Of a stretch of 64,000 nucleotides of DNA, positions 11,642 through 13,055 are shown piece after piece. Both the position numbers and the translations under genes were made by a program. The stretch covers positions 803,333 to 867,332 of the forward strand of contig NZ_JAROCB010000001.1 of the NCBI RefSeq assembly GCF_030433675.1, given 5' to 3'. The notes under the pieces were generated by a model. It made no database searches. It saw only the letters and a program-made list of their open reading frames with translations, and was not told the DNA's origin. Every line of letters starts with the position of its first letter. The stretch's first letter is position 1. This DNA is from Leifsonia virtsii. GTDB lineage: Bacteria > Actinomycetota > Actinomycetes > Actinomycetales > Microbacteriaceae.

Positions 11642-12400
11642 GTGAGCATCGACCAGCCCGACGATGACGTCGCCGCGCTGCAGCGCCCCGGCGCGCTGTA
11701 CTACGCCGGCCGCATCCTCATGGCCCCGCTGCTGAAGCTCGTCTACCGGCCGCGAGTGATCGGCCGCAGGAACGTCCCGAAGCACGGCAAGGTCATCCTG
11801 GCCAGCAACCACCTGTCGTTCATCGACTCCGTCGTGATCCCGATGACCGCCCCGCGGCGTGTGCAGTTCCTCGCGAAGTCGAGCTACTTCGAAGGCAGCG
11901 GGTTCAAGGGACGCGTCTCCCGCGCCTTCTTCACCTCCATCGGCGCGGTCGGGGTCAAGCGCGGCGCGGGGGCCGCCGCACAGGAGGCGCTCGACCAGTC
12001 GCGCCGGATCATCGACACCGGCGCCGCCTTCGCGCTCTACCCCGAAGGCACGCGCTCTCTCGACGGCCGCCTGTACAAGGGCCGGACCGGGATCGGCTGG
12101 CTCGCCCTGACGACCGGCGCCGTCGTCGTGCCGGTCGGGCTGATCGGCACCGACCAGATGCAGCCCGTCGGAGCGAAGTTCCCGAAGCCGCACCGGATCA
12201 CCGTCGTGTTCGGCGAGCCGCTCGACCTGGCGCATTACGGACCGCCGGAGTCGGGACGCGCTCGGCGCCAGGCGACGGACGCGATCATGGCGGCCATCCA
12301 CGGCCTCACCGGCCAGGAGCTGGCGGGCGTGTACAACGAGGCGCCGCCCGCGAGCGCGGTCGAGCGCGTCAAGCGCGCCCTGCGGCCCGAGCGTCTCTGA
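11642..12400 (+). CDS. plsC: 1-acyl-sn-glycerol-3-phosphate acyltransferase family (PlsC-like)
   Basis: A 252-residue membrane-associated acyltransferase that would add an acyl chain to lysophosphatidate in phospholipid synthesis. The HX4D catalytic motif appears as NHLSFID (about 56-62), and the second motif as YPEGTRS with FKGRVSR and PVGLIG in the usual order. An N-terminal hydrophobic stretch (LYYAGRILMAPLLKLVY) may anchor it. Family members also acylate other polyols, so substrate specificity is not proven. The GTG start has the leaderless -10 spacing. The gene ends 17 bases before an unusual palindrome array. Confidence 0.85.
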   Translation: MSIDQPDDDVAALQRPGALYYAGRILMAPLLKLVYRPRVIGRRNVPKHGKVILASNHLSFIDSVVIPMTAPRRVQFLAKSSYFEGSGFKGRVSRAFFTSIGAVGVKRGAGAAAQEALDQSRRIIDTGAAFALYPEGTRSLDGRLYKGRTGIGWLALTTGAVVVPVGLIGTDQMQPVGAKFPKPHRITVVFGEPLDLAHYGPPESGRARRQATDAIMAAIHGLTGQELAGVYNEAPPASAVERVKRALRPERL

Positions 12401-12417
12401 CGCGGCGCCCGTCACGG

Positions 12418-12562
12418 TTCGTGACGAACGCGCGCCATTCGTGACGAACGCGCGCCATTCGTGACGAATGCGCCCGATTCGTGACGAATCGGGGACGGGC
12501 GCACTCGGCGATTCGTCACGAACGGACGCTGTTCGTCACGAATCGCGGCCATTCGTCACGAA
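12418..12562. repeat. Seven-copy 11-bp palindrome array, 20-bp period, 4 forward + 3 inverted
   Basis: TTCGTGACGAA occurs at 12418, 12438, 12458 and 12478; its complement form TTCGTCACGAA occurs at 12512, 12532 and 12552. Within each block the spacing is exactly 20 bp, and the two blocks are 34 bp apart (copy 4 to copy 5). Each 11-mer is itself an odd palindrome around a single G or C; copy 4 extends to 17 bp. The first two 20-bp units are identical. The array fills the space between two convergent genes. The two blocks can pair into a long interrupted hairpin, or the copies can serve as helically phased protein sites. Confidence 0.95.
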
Positions 12563-12578
12563 CGGGCGCGGGCGCAGG

Positions 12579-13055
12579 TCAGGCCTCGAGGGCCTGGGAC
12601 TTGGCGCGGTAGGTGCGGGCCTTCTGGCGGTTGCCGCAGACGCCCATGCTGCACCACTGGCGGGAGCCGTTGCGCGACTCGTCGTAGAAGGCCCAGCGGC
12701 AGTCCTCTCCCCCGCACAGGCGGACGCGCGCGAGCTTTCCCTGGATCTGCAGGACCACCGCGCTCGCCAGGGCCGCCTCCGCCGCGGTGCGGGCGGTGAG
12801 GCCGACCGCGCCCGGTCCGGACGAGACGGGAAGCGAGAGCTCGGGCAGCGGCGCCTCGGCACCGTCGACGATCTCGCGGAGCGCGTCCCGCAGCTCCTGC
12901 GCGCGCACCCGCTCCCCCGGGGCCACGCCATGATCGCCGGCCCAGCGGCGGAGTCCGGCATCGTCGGCGAGCTGGTCGGCGTCGTCCTCGACATCGAGAG
13001 TGTTCAGGAAGTCGACCAGCAGACCGGGGCCGAGCTCGGGCGCATTCGTACGCAT
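12579..13055 (-). CDS. CGNR zinc-finger protein (ABATE domain), putative regulator
   Basis: A 158-residue protein with an N-terminal ABATE-type stress-response domain (about 10-100) and a C-terminal CGNR zinc finger. The metal ligands are C114, C119, C135 and C140, the last in the signature CGNR (140-143), followed by basic residues suited to DNA contact. Proteins of this family are presumed transcription regulators; no target is known here. It is divergent from a small ORF, and the space between them carries repeated GTAAC palindromic elements that may be its own operator. TACAAT ends six bases before the ATG, so it is probably leaderless. Confidence 0.88.
   Translation of the reverse strand: MRTNAPELGPGLLVDFLNTLDVEDDADQLADDAGLRRWAGDHGVAPGERVRAQELRDALREIVDGAEAPLPELSLPVSSGPGAVGLTARTAAEAALASAVVLQIQGKLARVRLCGGEDCRWAFYDESRNGSRQWCSMGVCGNRQKARTYRAKSQALEA

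Follow-up and report, generated by a model that had tools for sequence, protein, structure and literature searches.

What kind of element is the row of short palindromes that fills the gap between two convergent genes of Leifsonia virtsii? The window, i.e., the whole stretch of 64,000 nucleotides analyzed, carries seven exact copies of the 11-bp palindrome TTCGTSACGAA at positions 12418–12562. Four G-centred cores (TTCGTGACGAA, plus strand) at 12418–12428, 12438–12448, 12458–12468, and 12478–12488 are followed by three C-centred cores (TTCGTCACGAA as read on the plus strand, the reverse complement of TTCGTGACGAA, assigned to the minus strand) at 12512–12522, 12532–12542, and 12552–12562, while the array as a whole is unstranded. 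The core-to-core steps are 20, 20, 20, 34, 20, and 20 bp, with the 34-bp step corresponding to an unstranded central spacer of 23 bp (12489–12511), 14 bp longer than the other spacers of 9 bp. Exact 11-mer positions confirmed the description in the first-pass annotation, which had listed seven palindromes, the 20-bp spacing, the 34-bp step, and a clean switch of orientation. Its placement of the array between convergent genes also holds. An acyltransferase gene (PF01553; plus strand, 11642–12400) stops 17 bp ahead of the array, and a gene with CGNR zinc-finger and ABATE domains (PF11706 and PF07336; minus strand, 12579–13055) has its stop codon 16 bp past it, leaving between the stop codons (12400 and 12579) a gap of 178 bp that is mostly taken up by the array. 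Judging from the coordinates, units 2–7 have mirror symmetry about position 12500 at the core level; the spacers are complementary in part only. When one mismatch is allowed, the window has 10 matches, three of them outside the array, compared with a mean of 0.71 and a maximum of 3 in 100 shuffles.

The core is frequent in this genome and in its genus. Base composition would put 0.5 exact copies and 6e-8 pairs at +20 in 4.2 Mb, an estimate that is too low because related genera carry 0–13 copies. The 4.2-Mb assembly that contains the window (G000; working G-numbers denote genomes of the genus and L-numbers denote loci) has 60 exact copies of TTCGTSACGAA in 31 clusters, including 23 pairs at 20 bp, far above both the estimate and the counts in related genera. 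Exact copies are present in every one of the 28 Leifsonia genomes, with a range of 3–473, and near relatives diverge (4 copies in G012 vs 40 in G013). In comparison, the 293 genomes outside the genus, among 299 counted in the family, have 0–13 copies. The 20-bp spacing that the first-pass annotation had proposed to look for across the family recurs in five of the 28 Leifsonia genomes at very uneven copy number (23 pairs in G000, 10 in G004, 35 in G008, 12 in G013, and 35 in G020), and is absent from the 32 non-genus genomes of the same sample. Pairs of cores at 40 bp were found in all eight further Leifsonia genomes tested (24–120 each) and also in G000, which has 24; the 395 non-Leifsonia genomes searched in the order have none. 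The array is thus not peculiar to one strain and its spacing recurs elsewhere, contrary to two of the conditions (the third being that no protein binds it) under which the first-pass annotation would have preferred a neutral local duplication. A search of genome contigs for the pattern, which may omit records of the window's own genome, returned 26 stretches, of which 24 belong to Leifsonia sp. C5G2 (G020), the closest named relative met in the comparison. The surroundings of the arrays are about 91–96% identical between these two genomes, excluding two pairs at 69% and 74% that are apparently non-orthologous. The remaining two stretches, one in Methylobacterium and one in Lachnospiraceae, were rejected as family members; both are lone two-copy repeats and were taken as chance matches. 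No 20-bp pair was found in the viral contigs searched. In the genomes searched, the family is restricted to Leifsonia. The papers listed in literature searches on Leifsonia repeats and on REPs in Actinobacteria, within a coverage that includes few subscription journals, show no description of it, and those listed for the motif itself are unrelated.

The family occurs in two formats. In sister Leifsonia genomes, the step between cores is exactly 40 bp. The core is then TTCGTSACGAA or an asymmetric form, TTCGTGCCGAA/TTCGGCACGAA, and in G014 as many as nine cores follow one another, mostly at this distance. G014, G009, G026, G019, and G023 are rich in elements; six genomes are low for both cores (G003, 6 + 5; G005, 6 + 12; G006, 3 + 12; G011, 10 + 10; G017, 3 + 6; G022, 5 + 5). 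Distances of 20 bp make up 27 of 34 adjacent distances in G000, where all clusters were sampled, and 36 of 49 in G020, where loci were chosen by 20-bp pairs. Distances of 40 bp make up 67 of 78 in G014 and 36 of 55 in G023, both represented by hand-picked multi-copy clusters, and 22 of 22 in G021, where loci were chosen by 40-bp pairs. Conservation within the 40-bp element centres on the core and its ACA/TGT flanks and on two A/T-rich triplets, one spanning +18 to +20 and the other +30 to +32. Among 93 elements selected on cores only, with look-alikes removed (36 from G019, 16 from G021, 21 from G023, and 20 from G001), position +18 is A or T in all 93 (42 A and 51 T), position +32 in 92, and the remaining four triplet positions in 83–94%; the host DNA is 70–72% GC in the three of these four genomes that were measured. 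A and T interchange freely at +18 and +32 and G and C are nearly excluded, as expected for minor-groove or shape readout. Counting the TT and AA of the core, A/T steps fall near 0, 10, 19, 31, 40, and 50. The top harmonic of 40 in the A/T profile of the 40-bp elements is 10.00 bp in three of three genomes, with core and interior in phase, although in G014 this peak leads narrowly (0.115 vs 0.112). The 20-bp arrays have the 10-bp component as well, but their 5-bp harmonic is stronger, which counts against reading them as rows of protein-binding sites.

Spacers drift, whereas the cores, the distance of 20 or 40 bp between them, and A/T steps about every 10 bp are conserved. Neighbouring units were compared in triplets in which the tested core is flanked on both sides by exact cores (11 triplets in the window genome, 9 in G020, and 42 in G014). 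In the window genome, the cores differ at 2 of 110 sites and the spacers at 37 of 77 (Fisher p = 3e-15); the corresponding values are 2/90 and 17/63 in G020, and 8/420 and 147/1134 in G014 (Fisher p = 4e-13), with both p values treating sites as independent. The central base flips between G and C from one unit to the next in 4 of 11, 3 of 9, and 9 of 42 cases, respectively. The centre itself is restricted to TGA, TCA, TGC, or GCA in 266 of 273 phased partner sites with intact TTCG/CGAA from G000, G020, G014, and G023, a set that omits 88 sites of G021 and G001 (loci selected by TTCGTGCCGAA, most as exact 40-bp pairs) and in which the G020 loci came from 20-bp pairs. Among 52 changed cores, 50 of them from G000 and G020, the change affects one half only in 50 and both halves differently in two; in none did both halves change alike. 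A single outer change to CTCG.. or ..CGAG accounts for 32 of the 52. Over the 63 20-bp blocks of G000 and G020, these forms (CTCG at the left, CGAG at the right) occupy 32 of 126 outer half-sites vs 8 of 268 inner ones, and the two ends of a block change independently (both in 3 blocks, right only in 13, left only in 9, neither in 29, other in 9; Fisher p = 1.0). Between orthologues, the cores (21 differences at 250 sites) are better kept than the spacers (70/344; p = 5e-5) and not clearly better kept than the mostly coding flanks (117/1052; p = 0.25).

The family sits mainly at gene 3′ ends and above all between convergent genes. With gene contexts from a home-made hexamer gene caller trained on the loci, 119 clusters from five genomes (all clusters of G000, loci of G020 and G021 found via core pairs, and clusters picked from partial lists for G014 and G023) comprise 62 convergent, 39 co-directional, and 7 divergent placements (n = 108), eight clusters within genes, and three without a call. 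Element-free gaps of the same stretches are 46 convergent, 198 co-directional, and 102 divergent (n = 346), and the enrichment of convergent contexts over all others is strong (p = 7e-19). In the window genome, 28 clusters were placed as 16 convergent, 12 co-directional, and none divergent; one convergent call is doubtful (L059, a single copy in a 710-bp gap), as a GC-frame gene caller put it inside a gene. The other three of the 31 clusters lie inside genes, and all three are single copies. In 11 of the 16 convergent clusters, the cores are 6–32 bp from both stop codons. Two of the co-directional calls actually face a tRNA gene on the other strand: the L046 element (1461–1511; window genome C2:469975) is just ahead of the 3′ end of a tRNA-Val gene (1564–1639, opposite strand), and the L051 element (1501–1511; C2:727557) is just ahead of that of a tRNA-Met gene (1558–1632, opposite strand).

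Orthologous gaps show how quickly these sites turn over. The gap 3′ of the acyltransferase gene, compared by eye in 28 genomes, holds 20-bp arrays of unequal length in G000 and G020 and other forms in G010, G019, G023, G024, and G027. In 20 of the 28, it has no array of the TTCGTSACGAA family, and the next gene often begins within tens of bases. In G014, this gap (L106) contains an unrelated long palindrome instead, GAGTCCGCAGAGACTGCACG plus its complement, with further partial copies. Ten of 12 orthologous gaps could be aligned, and array length varies in several of these, e.g., by one 20-bp unit at L060/L033. At L046/L020, a 40-bp element in the window genome corresponds to a 20-bp array in G020; at L064/L025, the 20-bp array belongs to the window genome, and its counterpart in G020 is a hybrid, in which two outer cores are 40 bp apart with a once-changed core between them. 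It looks as if one format had replaced the other in place.

Among known repeats, REPs are short palindromes with tens to hundreds of copies, often clustered and intergenic, located near 3′ ends and in most cases flanked by convergent or co-directional genes (PMC3733652), and BIMEs of enterobacteria and pseudomonads have regular spacing (PMC2817692). The Leifsonia arrays are REP/BIME-like in placement: they are high-copy, clustered, extragenic short palindromes near gene 3′ ends, and their copy number is low in some genomes. They differ in lacking a RAYT (Y1_Tnp, PF01797: 0 of 28 Leifsonia genomes vs 5 of 14 control genomes positive), which sets them apart from RAYT-mobilized REPs of the GTAG type, and in their 20- or 40-bp spacing. 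They also differ in the nature of the unit: what is conserved is the core, whose centre is fixed, together with A/T steps in which A and T can be exchanged, rather than a stem-loop kept by compensatory change. The CGTC-tagged REPs, including Neisseria dRS3, share with the Leifsonia family A and T in the first two positions of the stem and the lack of a dedicated transposase (PMC3733652). They are described with a stem of 8–9 bp, a loop of 4–5 nt, an unpaired CGTC tag, and a CCA tail, and the five phyla named for them do not include Actinobacteria (PMC3733652). Compared by eye with this description, the Leifsonia profile has ACA/TGT flanks and a 3-bp centre, and neither the CGTC tag nor the CCA tail.

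Sites of DNA-binding proteins provide another comparison. The KorB operator, Noc sites, and matS are short palindromes found at many sites over a replicon, and the KorB operator has a G-or-C centre; the Leifsonia core is likewise a short palindrome and S-centred. These systems are not generally known for tandem arrays with 20-bp steps at the ends of genes. The only family tried as a binder, the ParB-type helix-turn-helix PF17762, was not supported: it is present as one copy in 26 of the 28 genomes regardless of element number, with a second, weaker match in G015 (26.6 bits) and in G009 (22.3 bits, partial). In this respect, Leifsonia differs from ParB/Noc-type systems, as the count of ParB-family proteins does not track the number of elements.

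The arrays could also act at the RNA level, transcribed into long hairpins that would end or protect both convergent mRNAs, as bidirectional terminators or 3′ stabilizers, the roles that have been proposed for REPs. We regard this as rather unlikely. The closeness of the cores to both stop codons agrees with it, and predicted folding is strong, with mean z between −5.0 and −9.4 relative to dinucleotide shuffles and between −1.4 and −3.6 relative to core-keeping shuffles (95 arrays, five genomes). Part of the latter excess arises because these shuffles destroy the conserved dyad flanks, and the window's own array scores −9.1 and 0.0, respectively. Shuffling right halves among elements gave arm pairing modestly above chance when four genomes were pooled (z = 2.25) and in G021 (z = 2.1; 2.6 at positions 12–17), but no excess in G023 or G014 (z by genome, −0.85 to 2.1). 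Perfect inverted repeats occur in the inner stem of 3 of the 93 elements, and L053 and L065 have perfect or near-perfect ones over longer arms by eye. The TTCGTGCCGAA cores paired at 40 bp in G021 have opposite orientations in 27 of the 39 pairs listed, 21 of the 27 one way (by eye), which fits hairpin arms and a dyad site equally. REPs elsewhere are placed alike and are thought to be transcribed (PMC3733652). Against an RNA role, none of the 52 changed cores is compensated, the would-be loop is fixed in sequence, and the independent changes at block ends are the opposite of what a hairpin pairing both ends predicts. Moreover, no intrinsic terminator (G+C stem plus T run) is present on either strand of 12200–12800, where a promoter scan also returned nothing, and Rfam 15 gave no match at the gathering score in 12300–12700 (best, mir-2059, 34.3 of 90 bits, E = 3e-5); the five sub-threshold Rfam matches are to unrelated models and were taken as chance matches to hairpin-rich DNA. 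Selection for a hairpin is thus poorly supported, though predicted folding is strong, and the same evidence (no compensation, independent ends, weak or absent covariation) disfavours the cruciform that the first-pass annotation had offered as an alternative. We read the balance as probable selection on double-stranded DNA, with some palindromic ancestry.

Placement at gene ends, being common to REPs of other bacteria, suits not only an RNA role but also a selfish element that ends up in places where it does no damage. A REP- or MITE-like repeat might multiply in Leifsonia and survive where it does least harm, between 3′ ends, with core conservation reflecting the needs of a putative mobilizing enzyme or recent amplification. 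The patchy, lineage-specific copy numbers, the lack of an array of the family in 20 of the 28 genomes at the gap orthologous to the window's, and the shifts in array length between close species are all in line with this scenario. However, the Y1 (RAYT) transposase is absent from the 28 Leifsonia genomes, and after recent amplification spacers should resemble one another as closely as cores do, whereas the spacers of the window-genome arrays differ at 48% of sites. A selfish origin is unlikely in our view. Neutral tandem duplication by slippage, with no function, would explain differences in array length such as the single unit at L060/L033, but it does not account for cores that are held while spacers are randomized, nor for the presence of such elements in many gaps of many Leifsonia genomes; genus-wide copies and core conservation largely refute it, and we give it very little credence.

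We lean, if only slightly, towards reading the array as a row of sites for one candidate sequence-specific, probably dimeric DNA-binding protein of Leifsonia. Helically phased sites for a dimeric protein had been suggested in the first-pass annotation, and that part fits the held cores, the 20- and 40-bp spacing with free spacers, the A/T steps of about 10 bp, and the specific centre; the protein itself stays hypothetical. Each core would bind a dimer that reads the half-sites TTCG/CGAA in the major groove and approaches the A/T steps via the minor groove. Adjacent dimers would share one face of the helix and could touch, which may bend the DNA or wrap it into a short filament. Between convergent genes, this filament might be a roadblock or insulator for transcription from either side, or alternatively might absorb supercoils from converging transcription. 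A copy number that ranges from background to 473 within one genus and differs between near relatives would be odd for a core chromosome protein and speaks against protein-binding sites, as do the strong predicted folding, the origin of 50 of the 52 changed cores in two genomes, and the similar conservation of cores and flanks between orthologues. A broader version is possible but doubtful: a genus-specific architectural protein might wrap DNA at shape-read sites (A/T versus G/C, 10-bp period) and set gene ends, convergent ones above all, apart as insulators or points of topological domains, with sites that turn over fast and switch between the 20- and 40-bp formats while keeping helical phase. 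If the arrays are indeed protein-binding sites, an undescribed protein would organize gene ends in a bacterial genus, and REP-like repeats would here be kept as protein sites rather than as hairpins, a point of relevance to the role of REPs and BIMEs in general. The fast turnover of sites would then supply many natural experiments at orthologous gaps that are with or without an array or carry the 20-bp or the 40-bp format.

Two irregular arrangements of the 40-bp format were also observed. At the G023 loci L132–L147, the linkers joining 40-bp pairs recur at 25–26 (five cases), 35–36 (10 cases), 38 (two cases), and 47 bp (two cases), measured start to start; relative to the phase of the 40-bp pairs, these lengths are shifted by roughly half a turn. 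In G019, a 75-bp tandem array of a mixed element (40 + 35) at C1:42568–42988 contains at least seven exact copies of TTCGTSACGAA, six of them spaced by 75 bp and the seventh 35 bp further on.
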